The position numbers were made by a program, and so were the translations under genes. A DNA stretch of 64,000 nt from Halomonas sp. (lineage in GTDB: Bacteria > Pseudomonadota > Gammaproteobacteria > Pseudomonadales > Halomonadaceae). Shown here one piece after another: positions 26,264 through 49,282 of this stretch. Below the pieces are notes generated by a model. It saw only the letters and a program-made list of their open reading frames with translations, made no database searches and was not told the DNA's origin. How positions within the stretch are numbered: the stretch's first letter is position 1; the number at the start of each line of letters is the position of its first letter. The DNA is taken from the NCBI RefSeq assembly GCF_017515565.1, contig NZ_JAFWFN010000007.1, positions 30,318 to 94,317 on the forward strand, given 5' to 3'.

Positions 26264-27570
26264 TGCAACAAGCGCTACGGCTTTTCGGCTTCCTGCTAGT
26301 GTTGTTGCTACCCATGTTTGCATGGGCCACACCAAGTTTTGATGAGTATTTTGAACGTCACTCAGCCCCTATGTGGATGATTGACACCACGAGTGGAGAC
26401 ATCGTACGCGCCAACGCCGCTGCTTATGAATTTTATGGCTACGATGATCTTGAACAGCGAAATATCAGCCAAATTAACATGCTGACACCTGCGCAAATAC
26501 AAGATGAAATCGCCCGCGCGCGCGACCGCTCTGCCAATCACCTTTTTATGCGTCACCAGCTTTCCGATGGCACCGTGAAAGTTGTGGGTATTTATACTCA
26601 ACGGCATGATGTTGGTGACCGTGAGGTGCTGATATCTTCAATTTATGACACAAGTGAGTTCGAAAGCTCTGCTGAGCGGCACTATATTAAAAGCGTTGAG
26701 CAGCAAGTAGATCTTCAGACCGCAGCATTGATAGCTGCTGAGCGCAGGACAAGATGGATAAGCTTAATCGCTATTTCTGCACAGGCGTTGTTCATACTTT
26801 TACTGATCATGATGGTTATCCGGCTACGTAAAGCCAAGAAAGATAATGAACAGCTGATTGATGCGCTTTCTCACCAAAATAGTGATTTGGAAAGGCTGGG
26901 GCATGTGATGGCCCACCATTTTCAAGAGCCTAGCCGACGCTTAATTAGCTTTTCACAGCAGTTAAAGCGGGACATTGTTGCCACTGCTTCCCCAAATACG
27001 GCAATGGCTGTTCATTTCATAAGCACGCAGTCTCAGCGTTTAAGTGAACTCGTTTCAGATGTGCAGCGCTATTTAAGCCTGGGCACCGTTCCACCAGTAT
27101 TCGAGCTGTTAGATACCCAGTCAATCTTGCAAGACGTATATCAGACGGAAGACCTGTTAGCGCCCCTGCGGCTAGAGAGCGAGCTGGAGATTTCCACACC
27201 GCTGCCCCGTGTATATTTTGATAAGAAACAGCTAAGCCTTATTTTTAAAATATTGCTGCACAATGCTTGGCAGTATCGCTGCAAAGATAGGCCGGTAAGA
27301 GTCGTTATCAGTGGGTTGAAAGTAGGCGACCGGGTGCGTTTTCGGGTAGAAGATAATGGCCAAGGGGTTGCGCCTGAATACCGTAAGCAGATTTTCGATA
27401 TGTTCTCGCGGCTAGTGCCTAATAACGAAGAGTACCCAGGGACAGGGATGGGGTTAGCGCTGGTGGCCAAAGCACTTAGAAAAACAAACAGCCGTATAAG
27501 CATTGAAGATGGCCCCCAAGGGGGTGCTTGTTTTATATTTGATTTGCCTGCGGTAGGGAGTGAAAAATGA
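26263..27570 (+). CDS. Sensor kinase with predicted periplasmic PAS domain
   Basis: 435 residues from the ATG at 26263 (GGAAGGAG upstream; overlaps the previous stop by one base). A signal-like helix (4-22) is followed by an S-box-like PAS (about 33-132), a membrane helix (165-187), and a kinase core whose H-box reads MAHHFQEPSRR, with His218 as probable phospho-acceptor and His instead of the usual Asp next to it. N-box LLHNAWQY, DNGQGV and GTGMGLAL are present. The topology places the PAS outside the cytoplasm. The last 4 bases overlap the downstream receiver gene, its likely partner. Confidence 0.88.
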   Translation: MQQALRLFGFLLVLLLPMFAWATPSFDEYFERHSAPMWMIDTTSGDIVRANAAAYEFYGYDDLEQRNISQINMLTPAQIQDEIARARDRSANHLFMRHQLSDGTVKVVGIYTQRHDVGDREVLISSIYDTSEFESSAERHYIKSVEQQVDLQTAALIAAERRTRWISLIAISAQALFILLLIMMVIRLRKAKKDNEQLIDALSHQNSDLERLGHVMAHHFQEPSRRLISFSQQLKRDIVATASPNTAMAVHFISTQSQRLSELVSDVQRYLSLGTVPPVFELLDTQSILQDVYQTEDLLAPLRLESELEISTPLPRVYFDKKQLSLIFKILLHNAWQYRCKDRPVRVVISGLKVGDRVRFRVEDNGQGVAPEYRKQIFDMFSRLVPNNEEYPGTGMGLALVAKALRKTNSRISIEDGPQGGACFIFDLPAVGSEK

Positions 27571-44692: not shown

Positions 44693-46243
44693 TTACGTGA
44701 TAATGCCCTGCTCCCGCGCCATGGCATAGGCTGCCTGGGGGCCATTCCAGAGCGATGGCAGTAAGATCAATGAAACGGGAATCGCAGTAATCACGATAAA
44801 CTGCTGCAGTGCGCCGATTTGTCCAGCGCCCATGTAGAGTAGTACCGCCGCCATCAGCGCCATCGCAATACCCCAAAAGGCACGTATGTAAGGGCTGGGG
44901 TTGTCGTGACCAGCGCCCACTACCGCAATGGCGTAGCTCATTGAATCACCCGTGGTCGCCACAAAAATTGTGGTCAGCAATAGAATTGCCAACGCCATCC
45001 AGGTGCCGCCGGGCAGCGCCTGAGCAACCGTTAACGTTGCCACATCAAATTGGAAGTTGTTCAGCGCGTCGGTTAGGTCAATCACGCCGTTGAGCTGGTA
45101 GTAGATACCCGAGCCGCCTAGCAAGGTAAACCATACGGTAGTCGCAATAGGCGCAAGAACCGCGACGGCCAGAATCATCTCGCGAATGCTGCGGCCCCGG
45201 GAAATGCGCGCCACAAAAATCGCCATTAACGGCGCATAGCCAATAAACCAGGCAAAGAAGAATACCGTCCACCACTGCATCCACCACGCTGGTGCGGTGT
45301 CGGCGGTCATGGTGGCCATGGTGAAGAACTCACTCGCATAAGCGCCCATACTCGCGACGTAGGTGTTGACCAAAAACAGCGTAGGGCCAAAGACGAAAAT
45401 CGCCGCGCCAATCGCCAGCGCCAGCAGCACATTAAAACGGCTGAGCAGTTGGATGCCTTTGTGTATGCCGCTCATGGAAGAGAGCACATAAACACTGCCC
45501 AGTACTGCCAAAATAATCAGCTGTCCGGTGTAGCCTTCAGGTAGGCCAAATAGCTCATGCAGGCCAAAGCTTACCTGCGTTGCCAGAAAACCAATCGGGC
45601 CTACCGTGCCGGCGACGACTGCAATCACACAGCACGCATCGACTACCGCGCCCAGTGGGCCACGCATTAGGCGCTCGCCTAAAATTGGGTACAGTAGCGT
45701 ACGCGGTTGAAGCGGTTGGCCTTTCACATAGTGGGCGTGGGCCAGCACTACTGCCGTCAGGGAACCCAGCACGGCCCATGCCATAAAGCCCCAGTGCATA
45801 AACGACTGGGCCAGCGCGCCAGAGACGGCTTCAGCGGTGCCTGCTTCGGTATCAAATGCCGGCGGCGTGACTACGAAGTGATAAACCGGCTCTCCGGCAG
45901 CGAAAAACACCCCACCACCCGCCAGTAAGGTGCACAAAATAATCGACAGCCACTTGAAGGTGCTTATTTCTGGTGCATCAAGATTACCAATTTTAGCGCT
46001 GGCAGCGGGGGTGGCGGCCAAGCCAATCGCGATAAAGAAGGTCAGCAAAAGCAACAGTTGAAAGTAGCTGCCCAGCACCAGGGCCGTCCAAGCGAACCCT
46101 GCGCTGATAGAGTCGGCGACCAGCTCAATGTCGTACAGTGACAGAGCAAGAAACGCGACGATAAAGCCAATGCTGAGCAGCAGCACAATAGGGTCGCCAA
46201 GGGTACGCTGTATGCGGCCCTCGTTTGGGGCAGGTTGGTTCAT
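44693..46243 (-). CDS. BCCT-family betaine/choline/carnitine transporter
   Basis: 516 residues, 12 membrane helices. The BCCT signature is clear in helix 8 and loop: WWMQWWTVFFFAWFIGYAPLMAIFVARISRGRSIREM, with tryptophans lining the substrate box. Such carriers import quaternary ammonium compounds or betaine-like osmolytes with Na+ or H+. The N- and C-terminal tails are short, so BetP/BetT-like osmotic control by a long tail is unlikely. The substrate is unknown. Convergent with flagellin; a minus-strand terminator lies about 115 bases upstream. Confidence 0.92.
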   Translation of the reverse strand: MNQPAPNEGRIQRTLGDPIVLLLSIGFIVAFLALSLYDIELVADSISAGFAWTALVLGSYFQLLLLLTFFIAIGLAATPAASAKIGNLDAPEISTFKWLSIILCTLLAGGGVFFAAGEPVYHFVVTPPAFDTEAGTAEAVSGALAQSFMHWGFMAWAVLGSLTAVVLAHAHYVKGQPLQPRTLLYPILGERLMRGPLGAVVDACCVIAVVAGTVGPIGFLATQVSFGLHELFGLPEGYTGQLIILAVLGSVYVLSSMSGIHKGIQLLSRFNVLLALAIGAAIFVFGPTLFLVNTYVASMGAYASEFFTMATMTADTAPAWWMQWWTVFFFAWFIGYAPLMAIFVARISRGRSIREMILAVAVLAPIATTVWFTLLGGSGIYYQLNGVIDLTDALNNFQFDVATLTVAQALPGGTWMALAILLLTTIFVATTGDSMSYAIAVVGAGHDNPSPYIRAFWGIAMALMAAVLLYMGAGQIGALQQFIVITAIPVSLILLPSLWNGPQAAYAMAREQGIIT

Positions 46244-46356
46244 AAAACACCTATAAATGAAAAGTCAGGGGCAGAGGTGCCCATTTATCAGCACCTTGCG
46301 CAAATAAGCGTAACGCATAGGTCGCAACGGGTTTTCAAAGCCTGGTTTTTTCGAAC

Positions 46357-46385
46357 AAAAAAAAGCGCCATTCAATGAATGGCGC
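46357..46385 (-). terminator. Minus-strand terminator upstream of the BCCT gene
   Basis: On the minus strand GCGCCATTC / GAATGGCGC (9-bp perfect stem, 3-base loop) is followed by eight T residues, a textbook intrinsic terminator. No minus-strand gene lies to its right, so it must end a short leader or a small RNA starting within about 46390-46610, upstream of the BCCT gene. Confidence 0.75.
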
Positions 46386-46420
46386 GAGGACAGGAAACTG
46401 GACGTAGTTTACCGTAAATA

Positions 46421-46434
46421 TAGACCAAGGTCTA
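46421..46434. promoter_or_regulatory. Palindrome TAGACC-AA-GGTCTA
   Basis: A 14-bp dyad with 6-bp perfect arms, suited to a dimeric repressor (for example TetR-type). The cognate protein is not identifiable; no regulator gene is adjacent. Confidence 0.4.
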
Positions 46435-46450
46435 ATGCTTTAGCTTATGT

Positions 46451-46497
46451 TGCTTAAAAATGGGTCAGAAGTGGATTTATTGCACTGTTATGGACCA
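46451..46497 (+). promoter_or_regulatory. Two NtrC-like sites upstream of the NitT-type operon
   Basis: TGCACTG-TTA-TGGACCA (46481-46497) matches 10 of 14 NtrC positions; TGCTTAA-AAA-TGGGTCA (46451-46467) matches 9 of 14. Centres are 30 bp apart and about 100 and 130 bp upstream of the start predicted by the sigma-54 element. Confidence 0.5.
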
Positions 46498-46561
46498 TCT
46501 GTGTGCTGGGGGTATCCAGAGATATTCATTAAGATTATGAAAAATATATAAAAAATATAGA

Positions 46562-46578
46562 TTGGCAACATAGATGCA
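46562..46578 (+). promoter_or_regulatory. Sigma-54 promoter of the NitT-type operon
   Basis: TTGGCAACATAGATGCA has the -24 GG (46564-46565) and -12 GC (46576-46577) exactly 10 bases apart and a full TTGGCA block. Transcription would begin near 46589, 27 bases before the first gene. Confidence 0.7.
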
Positions 46579-46615
46579 GAAGCAAAGAAAATAGTGCATA
46601 CAAGGTGCTCTGCCA

Positions 46616-47686
46616 ATGACGCTTCTTTCTACTTTGCCAACATACAGGTTACCGGCTAGTTGCCGCTCACTTACTGCGCTGGGGGTAACCTTAGCGCTGC
46701 TGCCAATCAACGCATTTGCCGATACTACATCGATACGTTTTCAACTGGACTGGCGCTTTGAAGGCCCATCCGCGCCGTTTTTGATGGCTGCGGAAAAAGG
46801 CTACTTCGCTGAAGAGGGATTGAACGTTCAAATCGACTCCGGCAGCGGCTCGGCAGGTGCTATTAATCGTGTGGCTTCTGGCGCCTACGAAATGGGTTTT
46901 GGCGATCTTAATGCGCTGGTCGAATTCCTAGCTGAAAACCCGGATGGGCCTGGCATTCAAGGCGTGTATATCGTTTATGACGGAACGCCAGCTGCCGTAT
47001 TTGCCCGTCAAGACAGCGGTATCGAAAGCCCGGCTGATTTAGTCGGTAAAACTATCGCTGCCCCAGCATTTGATACTGGTTACCGCGCCTGGGGGGTATT
47101 TGCCGCCGCTAATGAACTAGAAGCCGATTCAGTCGCCTGGCAAAATGTCGACCCCACCCTACGTGAAACCCTGCTGACCCGTGGCGATGTCGATGCCATC
47201 ACAGGCTTCTATTTCACCAGTTTGCTTAACCTTGAAGAGCGTGGCATGAGTGAAGATGACCTTACTATCATGCCATTCCCTGAATACGGCGTGCCGCTAT
47301 ATGGCAATGCGATTATTGCCAGTGAATCCTTCGCGGAAGACAATCCGGAAGCCGTGAAAGGCTTTCTACGTGCATTTAACCGAGCACTTGGCGAAACTAT
47401 TGCTGATCCTGACGCGGCCATTGAGTACGTCAAAAATCGCGACGGTTTAATTAATGTCGAAATGGAAACTCGACGCCTTAAACTGGCTCTGGATAGCGTC
47501 GTTGATACCCCCGATGCTCGTGAAAATGGCGTGGGCGGTGTCGATGAGGCGCGTCTGCTTGAGGCGATTCAACTGGTAGCAGACGCTTACGACTTACCCT
47601 CAACACCCTCACCAGAACAGGTGTTTAGCTCACGTTATTTACCCTCCCAGGAAGAGCGCATGCTGTTTCCAGAAGAGGGCGAATAA
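46616..47686 (+). CDS. NitT/TauT-type ABC transporter binding protein
   Basis: 356 residues. Signal peptide (ALGVTLALLPINAFA) and a THI5/NMT1-SsuA-like periplasmic core beginning IRFQLDWRFEGPSAPFLMAAEKGYFAEEGLNVQI, with SGSGSAGAINRVASGAYEMGFGD. Related proteins bind pyrimidine precursors, taurine, sulfonates or nitrate; the substrate cannot be decided. It heads an operon with ATPase and permease and lies behind a sigma-54 promoter, so a nitrogen-containing substrate is inferred. Two-base gap to the ATPase gene. Confidence 0.88.
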   Translation: MTLLSTLPTYRLPASCRSLTALGVTLALLPINAFADTTSIRFQLDWRFEGPSAPFLMAAEKGYFAEEGLNVQIDSGSGSAGAINRVASGAYEMGFGDLNALVEFLAENPDGPGIQGVYIVYDGTPAAVFARQDSGIESPADLVGKTIAAPAFDTGYRAWGVFAAANELEADSVAWQNVDPTLRETLLTRGDVDAITGFYFTSLLNLEERGMSEDDLTIMPFPEYGVPLYGNAIIASESFAEDNPEAVKGFLRAFNRALGETIADPDAAIEYVKNRDGLINVEMETRRLKLALDSVVDTPDARENGVGGVDEARLLEAIQLVADAYDLPSTPSPEQVFSSRYLPSQEERMLFPEEGE

Positions 47687-47688
47687 GC

Positions 47689-48471
47689 ATGGCGGCAGCG
47701 TTTGTTACCTTTGATGATGTCAGCCTCGCCTACGACGGGACGGGCAACGCCATTGAAGATATTAATTTGAGTATCCACGAGGGCGAATTTGTCGCCTTCG
47801 TGGGGCCTTCTGGGTGTGGAAAGTCCACGTTTATGAAGCTCTGCACGGGGCTGCATGCACCTACGGCTGGGGAAATTAAGGTTGATGGCGAGCCGGTCAC
47901 CGGGCCGCTGAAGATCTCCGGCATGGCGTTTCAAAATGCCAACCTCCTTCCCTGGCGAACGACATTGGATAACGTCTTGCTGCCGCTAGAGATCGTTAAA
48001 CCTTATCGCTATCAGTTTCGCAAGCGGCGGGAGGAGTTTGTCGGTTGGGCACGCAAACTGCTCAAGACCGTTGGGCTTGAGGGCTACGAAGATCAGTACC
48101 CCTGGCAGCTCTCAGGCGGAATGCAGCAGCGCGCCTCGATCTGCCGGGCGTTAATCCACCAGCCGCGCTTGCTGATGCTGGATGAACCCTTCGGCGCTTT
48201 GGATGCATTCACCCGCGAAGAGCTGTGGTGTGTACTGCGCGATCTGTGGGAAGCGCAGCGCTTCACCGTCGTATTAGTGACCCACGACCTACGAGAGGCA
48301 GCGTTTCTGGCGGATACGGTCTACATCATGAGCCGCCGCCCCGGCCGGGTGATTGAGCGTCGTCAAATCGCGCTAGCGCGCCCCCGTGCGCTGGAAACCA
48401 CCTATGAAAAACCCTTTATTGATTTGGTGCAGGAACTGCGCGCTCAAATTGGTGAAGTGCGTAGCACTTAA
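47689..48471 (+). CDS. NitT/TauT-type ABC transporter ATPase
   Basis: 260 residues. Walker A GPSGCGKST, Q-loop AFQNANLLPW, signature LSGGMQQR, Walker B LLMLDEPFGALDA and H-loop VTHDLREAAFLAD. Its sequence is of the SsuB/TauB/ThiZ class. It powers the permease encoded 40 bases downstream. Confidence 0.92.
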   Translation: MAAAFVTFDDVSLAYDGTGNAIEDINLSIHEGEFVAFVGPSGCGKSTFMKLCTGLHAPTAGEIKVDGEPVTGPLKISGMAFQNANLLPWRTTLDNVLLPLEIVKPYRYQFRKRREEFVGWARKLLKTVGLEGYEDQYPWQLSGGMQQRASICRALIHQPRLLMLDEPFGALDAFTREELWCVLRDLWEAQRFTVVLVTHDLREAAFLADTVYIMSRRPGRVIERRQIALARPRALETTYEKPFIDLVQELRAQIGEVRST

Positions 48472-48511
48472 TAGCCGTACTTAATGACAGCACCCAATAA
48501 AAGGCGCGCTT

Positions 48512-49282
48512 ATGACCAAACATAATCAGTTGATTGAAAGGCTGGCGCCGTGGATCGCGGTGGTCGCAATAGTCGTCATCTGGGAAGTGACGGTACGCTT
48601 ATTTAATGTGCCTAGCTTTATCTTTCCCAGCGCCCTGGAGACAGCCCAGGCGCTGGTAACGTACTCTGGGCCTATTGCCATGCACTCCTGGCAAACCTTC
48701 TGGACCACGCTGATAGGATTCGGTTTAGGCGTGGTAGTGGGGCTTATACTGGGCTTTATCATTGGCTCATCACGCTTTCTTTATAATGCTTGCTACCCGC
48801 TTTTAGTCGGCTTTAACGCTATTCCCAAAGTGGCATTTGTGCCGATTTTAGTGGTCTGGTTCGGTATCGGTTCGGTACCTGCCATTCTTACCGCTTTTTT
48901 AATCTGCTTCTTTCCCATTGTGGTTAACGTCGCTACCGGCCTTGCAACGCTTGAGCCAGAAATGGAGGACGTACTGCGAGTACTGGGCGCGCGACGCATG
49001 GATGTACTATTGAAAGTCGGCCTGCCGCGGTCACTTCCATACTTTTTTGCCTCGCTAAAAGTCGCCATTACTCTGGCGTTTGTGGGCACGGTGGTATCAG
49101 AAACTGTCGCCTCCAATCAAGGCATTGGCTACCTAATGATGAGTGCCGGTTCGCAGATGCGCATGGGCTTGGTATTTGCCGGGCTGCTGGTGATCAGCGC
49201 CATGGCCATGGTGATGTATGAGCTGTTTGCGCTACTTGAAAAACGCATGACCGGCTGGGCGCATCGCGGACAAAATCGATAA
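48512..49282 (+). CDS. NitT/TauT-type ABC transporter permease
   Basis: 256 residues, about six membrane helices, with the coupling loop EDVLRVLGARRMDVLLKVGLPRSLPYFFASLKVAI typical of SsuC/TauC. It forms a homodimeric channel with the upstream binding protein and ATPase. No catabolic enzyme gene is in the operon, so the substrate must be processed by enzymes encoded elsewhere. Confidence 0.92.
   Translation: MTKHNQLIERLAPWIAVVAIVVIWEVTVRLFNVPSFIFPSALETAQALVTYSGPIAMHSWQTFWTTLIGFGLGVVVGLILGFIIGSSRFLYNACYPLLVGFNAIPKVAFVPILVVWFGIGSVPAILTAFLICFFPIVVNVATGLATLEPEMEDVLRVLGARRMDVLLKVGLPRSLPYFFASLKVAITLAFVGTVVSETVASNQGIGYLMMSAGSQMRMGLVFAGLLVISAMAMVMYELFALLEKRMTGWAHRGQNR

Follow-up and report, generated by a model that had tools for sequence, protein, structure and literature searches.

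The locus and its importer

The window, that is, the whole stretch of 64,000 nucleotides of DNA of the halophile Halomonas sp. that was analysed, carries on its plus strand three genes coding for an ATP-binding cassette (ABC) importer of the NitT/TauT type: an NMT1-type substrate-binding protein, an ABC ATPase and a permease of the BPD_transp_1 family, all in one cluster (Table 1). We examined the promoter of this importer, the genes that share a regulatory site with it and the genes found beside its orthologues. These features make it rather probable that the importer takes up a compound of purine degradation, that it is activated by NtrC and sigma-54, and that in most members of the genus it is restrained by a GntR-type regulator resembling UgmR of Pseudomonas aeruginosa.

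Table 1. Features at the importer locus, in positions of the window
Feature	Positions	Strand	Remarks
Substrate-binding protein, NMT1/THI5-like, 356 residues	46616-47686	+	Pfam NMT1, E = 7.7e-40
ABC ATPase	47689-48471	+	Pfam ABC_tran, E = 5.2e-32
ABC permease	48512-49282	+	Pfam BPD_transp_1, E = 9.1e-26
Sigma-54 -24/-12 element TTGGCAACATAGATGCA, GG-N10-GC	46562-46578	+	TGGC-N8-TGCW conserved in orthologues
NtrC-like dyad 1 TGCTTAAAAATGGGTCA, centre 46459	46451-46467		9 of 14 NtrC consensus positions; weak in own genome
NtrC-like dyad 2 TGCACTGTTATGGACCA, centre 46489	46481-46497		10 of 14 NtrC consensus positions; spaced 30 bp from the first dyad
Degenerate copy GTGCATACAA of the GntR-type operator TTGTATACAA	46594-46603		2 mismatches; overlaps Shine-Dalgarno AAGG
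BCCT-family transporter, divergent neighbour of the importer	44693-46243	-	Pfam BCCT, E = 7.7e-143
ACTU/CrbR-type dyad TTAGACCTTGGTCTA	46421-46435	-	part of the divergent minus-strand unit; motif from PMC5715377
Conserved candidate small RNA or leader, 44 nt	46357-46400	-	ends in an intrinsic terminator; not part of the importer

Among the NCBIfam families shown, no equivalog reached its cut-off for the importer and therefore the family models give no substrate, in agreement with a first-pass annotation of the window, which had left the importer without a substrate assignment. The binding protein stayed below the cut-offs of TauA (52.8 vs 304.25 bits) and SsuA_fam (73 vs 163.5 bits). The closest folds to its AlphaFold model (predicted local distance difference test score of 85.9) were the thiamin-binding protein 4nmy, ThiY (3ix1) and Thi5, with an identity of 18-25%, and a sequence search of solved structures also led to 3ix1 (E = 7.4e-16). 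These solved relatives bind thiamin or pyrimidine rings, and the modelled fold fits a flat heterocycle as ligand, although it does not single one out. The first 33 residues or so were modelled with low confidence and are probably a signal peptide.

Two sets of relatives were used for comparison. The first consisted of 82 genomes of the same genus, here called Vreelandella (it includes Vreelandella nigrificans and V. titanicae), 40 of which have an orthologue of the importer, 36 intact and 4 split or broken; a 79-residue fragment in G008 was left out of these 40. In the four genomes with a damaged importer (G020, G031, G061 and G074) it is the binding-protein gene that is split or decayed. The second set consisted of 80 importer loci from named relatives.

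A conserved, probable sigma-54 promoter

The first-pass annotation had placed a -24/-12 element and two NtrC-like dyads upstream of the importer, and all of them were found at those coordinates. A scan of the window with the sigma-54 consensus, allowing up to three mismatches, gave 69 matches against 81 expected; neither dyad of the window was within three mismatches of the NtrC consensus, and the NtrC statistics of the window were also at chance level. Because the statistics of the window alone were uninformative, we turned to the orthologues.

Upstream of the importer, TGGC-N8-TGCW was present in all 40 genus loci, whereas 1.02 were expected from dinucleotide shuffles. One of the half-sites TGGTGC or GCACCA occurred in 39 of these upstream regions (7.23 expected, same shuffles): most orthologues have TGGTGC at the position of dyad 1 and GCACCA, or a near form of it, at the position of dyad 2, and the best-scoring dyads are spaced by 30-32 bp in 34 of the 40. 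As regards two sites of the GCACCA-N3-TGGTGC type, the half-sites are thus well conserved among the orthologues, the full dyads are imperfect and those of the window are degenerate.

Furthermore, TGGC-N8-TGCW was found in 50 of the 50 loci from named Halomonadaceae (the promoter counts over named loci omit one of the 80, L159, whose upstream sequence was too short). These 50 include 28 that largely duplicate the genus set and 22 that do not, from Billgrantia, Franzmannia, Litchfieldella and other Halomonas. The wider set carries more weight, because the genus relatives are not independent of each other. The 260-bp upstream regions of the 22 loci had a median identity of 0.51 to that of the window, against 0.49 for shuffled DNA, and despite such drifted flanks TGGCAG....CTGCAT stands out; TGGTGC lies at -132 to -85 in 20 of them.

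The genome to which the window belongs (86 contigs, 97.6% complete) contains both rpoN (G000:C35) and ntrC (G000:C48, 752 bits against a cut-off of 558.6). NtrC-type dyads with one mismatch were found at 33 places in this genome, against 6 for the reversed pattern, and none of them was at the importer promoter; this count was not used as evidence. With the conserved promoter and the presence of both genes, the proposed sigma-54/NtrC control of the importer is well supported as a prediction from sequence, although the NtrC half-sites of the window itself rank with the weakest. Absence of GG-N10-GC from the orthologous regions had been named beforehand as the outcome that would speak against it, and conservation was complete in the genus as well as in the Halomonadaceae.

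In another part of the window, at 27267-27283, we noticed TTGGCAGTATCGCTGCA, which is nearly identical to the orthologous -24/-12 elements and lies inside a histidine-kinase-like frame; as a -24/-12 element it is probably due to chance.

A palindromic operator shared with purine-degradation genes

A second layer of control escaped the first-pass annotation, so that its regulatory reading held for the sigma-54/NtrC part and was incomplete at the ribosome-binding site. There, the exact palindrome TTGTATACAA was found in 34 of the 40 genus importer loci, 30-35 bp downstream of the TGG of the -24 element and adjoining the start codon, and in most of them its right end is overlapped by the Shine-Dalgarno sequence. 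The form TTGTATACAAGG was present upstream of the importer in 32 of the 40 loci, against 0.0 expected. The copy of the window lies 31 bp downstream of the same TGG, and the operator is also degenerate in L002 and L003.

The palindrome is not confined to the importer. In the 82 genomes the 11-mer TTGTATACAAG gave 185 strand hits against 19 for the reversed control, counts that include the importer promoters and in which a site flanked by C and G is counted twice. Two intact copies of TTGTATACAA exist in the genome of the window. The first is upstream of puuE, between this gene and a GntR/FCD regulator gene (L043:10063-10803), in a cluster that also holds gcl, allA, allE, puuD and a homologue of xanthine permeases. 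The second is between a uraD gene and a gene that we read by eye as a tsx-like porin, for which there was no Pfam or NCBIfam match. In the assembly the uraD frame (L044:481-780) appears shortened or interrupted, since it has 99 residues and covers positions 1-84 of a model of 157.

In order to know what genes follow the operator, we surveyed 62 fetched regions, 60 of them among the sites listed and 2 from the genome of the window; importer promoters were excluded and the genes were unknown when the regions were chosen. These regions contained 77 operator sites, 39 of which were at the start of recognised purine genes or of the tsx-like porin: puuE (25), a racemase of the Asp/Glu/hydantoin family (24), allE (6), uraD (5), tsx-like (4) and hpxO, gcl and allophanate hydrolase (1 each), divergent genes being counted twice. 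Another 27 sites precede an unclassified permease-like protein of around 495 residues and 11 were unassigned, one of which (L067:3990) precedes a uacT-like frame. Therefore, at the level of the genus the operator is common to genes of purine degradation, the copy of the window being two mismatches away. The GntR gene of the allantoin/urate cluster is present in 80 of the 82 genomes. This distribution agrees with the regulon reported for UgmR, a GntR regulator of P. aeruginosa: it represses gcl together with the allantoin cluster, and uric acid releases it (PMC12694930).

The protein of around 495 residues deserves a separate comment. It is hydrophobic and has TTGTATACAA just upstream of its start in L048, L049, L051 and 24 other fetched regions. 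The one sequence tested had no Pfam, NCBIfam or PDB match; an 'NCS2b' label first given by eye was withdrawn for this reason, and the protein was not counted as a purine gene. It is a possible unrecognised family of purine permeases.

We also considered sigma-54 control of the whole purine regulon and rejected it, as a -24/-12 element was found in the scanned stretch at only one of the 77 operator sites. This site, L077 position 2292, belongs to an allophanate hydrolase gene and has a -24/-12-like element 23 nt upstream of TTGTATACAA; it is the sole other pair of this kind among the 77.

A different operator in sister genera

In 6 of the 50 Halomonadaceae importer promoters (L131, L132, L127, L128, L134 and L149) there is a RutR-like palindrome, TGACC-N4-GGTCA, 25 bp upstream of the TGG of the -24 element. 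The longer pattern TTGACC-N4-GGTCAR gave 9 hits in the genomes of L131, L149 and L128. Two of these are at the importer, three lie between xdhA and a TetR gene and one is close to a xanthine permease; another is at a permease read by eye, and the last two are close to a gene read in the same way as rpoD. As to the neighbouring genes, the families of xdhA and TetR were checked for L196 only, where xdhA matched and the RutR match was weak and limited to a fragment; L197 and L198 were read by eye. The same holds for L199 as an AzgA-type permease (a 98-residue fragment without NCBIfam match) and for the rpoD reading of the neighbours of L195 and L202.

Linkage to purine-degradation enzymes

Purine-degradation enzymes were found within the fetched flank of the importer in 15 of the 80 named loci, belonging to three lineages: Vreelandella/Halomonas (L121-L123), a metagenome-assembled genome of Ectothiorhodospiraceae (L151) and Burkholderiales (L160-L165, L168, L173, L175, L181 and L184). 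Two more loci, L141 and L145, had a distant GntR as their sole match and were dropped from the initial 17. Among the 80 loci puuE was found in 11, xdhA in 9 and puuD in 8. The linkage is particularly close in L123, which has uraD, uraH and puuD, with uraH-puuD directly upstream of the importer; in L151, where uraH-puuD follow the importer; and in L161, where xdhAB and puuD precede it. As a control we compared 24 other proteins of the window with the 80 loci, and 20 of them matched 0-2 loci. PuuD is reported to be often associated in genomes with known urate transporters (PMC4562309).

The first-pass annotation had stated that no enzyme genes accompany the importer. This is right for the window, whose 64 kb gave no match to any purine-related reference protein, and does not hold for these 15 named relatives.

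Proposed regulation and substrate

From the gene trio, the conserved promoter elements, the common operator and the gene linkage the following scheme can be proposed. Under nitrogen limitation, phosphorylated NtrC would bind the dyads, around 80-110 bp upstream of the -24 element, and would activate the sigma-54 RNA polymerase at the -24/-12 element. Transcription would start around 12 nt past position 46577, according to the usual geometry of such promoters. In most Vreelandella, the UgmR-like GntR/FCD regulator of the allantoin/urate cluster would bind TTGTATACAA just downstream of the predicted start and would block the operon until a purine signal arrives. In the genome of the window this brake may be weakened, because its operator has two changes; indeed, as the NtrC half-sites and the operator alike are more decayed than in most of its kin, the whole copy may be more weakly regulated.

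A nitrogen-containing substrate, as the first-pass annotation had predicted, is supported. We read it as a purine compound because the operator is common to purine-degradation genes, because in three lineages the importer has genes for urate oxidase, xanthine dehydrogenase and allantoinase linked to it, and because some sister genera have a second purine-associated operator. Within this group urate would be the most likely substrate, since, in the loci with the tightest linkage, the genes nearest to the importer are those of urate oxidase and hydroxyisourate hydrolase, and since UgmR responds to urate. Xanthine or hypoxanthine would come next, because of the linkage to xdh, and allantoin appears less likely.

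Several observations weigh against such a purine importer under double control. At the promoter, the window is the only one of the 40 genus loci without an intact TGGTGC or GCACCA half-site, its operator is degenerate in comparison with most orthologues, and outside the family the -24/-12 match is found in only 9 of 26 Burkholderiales and 1 of 3 other Gammaproteobacteria. The 26 Burkholderiales loci show no TTGTATACAA either, and, apart from the exception mentioned above, a -24/-12 element is missing from the other purine promoters. The RutR-like pattern is not enriched (9 hits against 9 in the reversed control) and therefore only the positions of its sites count as evidence. Regarding the linkage, no reference purine enzyme lies in the fetched flank of 65 of the 80 named loci, including most of the nearest relatives of the window, and not all the control proteins were rare, four of them matching 78, 78, 15 and 11 loci. 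Finally, puuE is present in 80 of the 82 genus genomes and the importer in 40, so that co-occurrence does not discriminate and the phylogenetic profile was discarded as evidence; the importer is thus dispensable for the pathway, an accessory route. The genome of the window already has a homologue of the NCS2 xanthine permeases, so that it is not evident why an ABC importer should be needed.

Among the alternatives, the one that survives best accepts the purine substrate and is compatible with the scheme above apart from the regulator step: the operator would be bound by another regulator, or the GntR protein of the cluster would be an activator. Some genomes do have more distant GntR/FCD paralogues. 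However, the intact site between puuE and the GntR gene of the cluster, the near universal presence of that gene in the genus and the repression by UgmR, relieved by uric acid, in P. aeruginosa (PMC12694930) argue for the cluster regulator as a repressor, and we consider this alternative unlikely.

A pyrimidine or a thiamin precursor as substrate, under NtrC control, is less likely still. The E. coli rut operon is under NtrC control, the closest solved folds of the binding protein are those of thiamin- and pyrimidine-binding proteins, and the importer promoters of some sister genera have a RutR-like operator. However, three genomes also have this operator at xdhA and one has it close to a xanthine permease, and TTGTATACAA marks purine genes; the survey of genes beside the importer was aimed at purine-related proteins and not systematically at pyrimidine, thiamin or sulfonate genes.

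The first-pass annotation had suggested a pyrimidine, an amine or an aminosulfonate, none of which is favoured by evidence that points to purines. An amine, taurine or aminosulfonate importer is very improbable: the matches to the TauA and SsuA models exist but are weak and far below the cut-offs, and sulfonate systems are usually controlled by sulfur and not by nitrogen. Least credible of all is an accidental -24/-12 match in an operon driven by a housekeeping promoter, since the chance-level statistics of the window are outweighed by conservation in every genus and Halomonadaceae locus with similar spacing to the NtrC half-sites, and a simple scan of the plus strand found no sigma-70-like site upstream of the importer.

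A more far-reaching form of the purine proposal, which could equally well turn out right or wrong, is that of a high-affinity ABC importer of urate or xanthine whose promoter joins nitrogen limitation with a pathway signal. The pathway regulator would have been exchanged in evolution: Vreelandella would have a UgmR-like GntR operator downstream of the start, and some other Halomonadaceae a RutR-like TetR operator that immediately precedes the -24 element, while membership of the purine regulon was kept. Such an importer would be an example of the purine importers outside the NCS families that are suspected in P. aeruginosa.

The divergent minus-strand unit

Between the importer and the BCCT gene there is a separate minus-strand unit (46357-46437), consisting of the ACTU/CrbR-type dyad, a -10-like TATACT (TAAACT in the window) and then CAGTTTCCTGTCCTCGCGCCATTCATTGAATGGCGC-T8. 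The dyad, as a pattern with a 4-base spacer, was found in 37 of the 40 genus loci, and the 44-nt block folds with a z-score of -4.5. Allowing up to two mismatches, the 44-nt core occurs once per genome in 59 of the 82 genomes, 31 of which have no importer. In 29 of 30 fetched loci of this element a BCCT gene follows it, the exception being L226, where there was no BCCT match, nor was there any in L115, a longer stretch of the same contig; the dyad pattern matched 27 of the 30. An Rfam search of 46200-46700 gave nothing at the gathering score and four weak small-RNA matches below it, and a seed-target search with the 12-mer complement of the element found little beyond the element itself. The block is a candidate, either for a very short small RNA or for a leader of the BCCT gene, which would be controlled by acetate.

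Comparison with known systems and significance

NtrC/sigma-54 promoters such as that of glnA have a -24/-12 element and two upstream NtrC sites around three helix turns apart, and the importer promoter resembles them in both respects. It differs in that most Vreelandella have a second, pathway-specific operator between promoter and start codon. With TauABC, SsuABC and the nitrate ABC importers it shares the three-part architecture and the transporter family, whereas the NCBIfam equivalogs shown are below cut-off and both the predicted substrate and the predicted control are different. The pyrimidine-precursor binding proteins ThiY/Thi5 (3ix1, 4esx) and the thiamin-binding 4nmy are alike in fold and Pfam family (NMT1/THI5-like), being the closest solved structures; however, the identity is low and the relatives of the importer adjoin purine-degradation genes instead.

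NitT/TauT-type importers are numerous and often have no known substrate. The sharing of an operator, the recurrent presence of urate oxidase and xanthine dehydrogenase genes beside the importer and the conserved nitrogen control give one subfamily a testable substrate, and thus a likely job to a transporter that previously had none. Purine uptake in Proteobacteria is usually credited to NCS1 and NCS2 carriers.

The regulon of UgmR (PA1520) is similar in its GntR-family control of gcl and the allantoin genes and in the relief of repression by uric acid, a likeness of function; the available part of that report mentions no ABC importer (PMC12694930). The NCS1 and NCS2 permeases also import xanthine, hypoxanthine and uric acid for use as nitrogen source, but they are secondary carriers and not ABC systems (PMC11633122). 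Actually, P. aeruginosa without all of its 13 NCS permeases keeps a residual growth on xanthine, hypoxanthine and guanine, although not on uric acid, which suggests that there are other purine importers, as that report itself suspects (PMC11633122). Among the literature matches listed, none describes an ABC importer of this kind for urate or purines in its title or in the opening of its abstract. If the proposal is true, uptake of urate or xanthine by an ABC importer would have a bearing on the nitrogen cycle of saline waters, and the importer could be of use in urate sensing.

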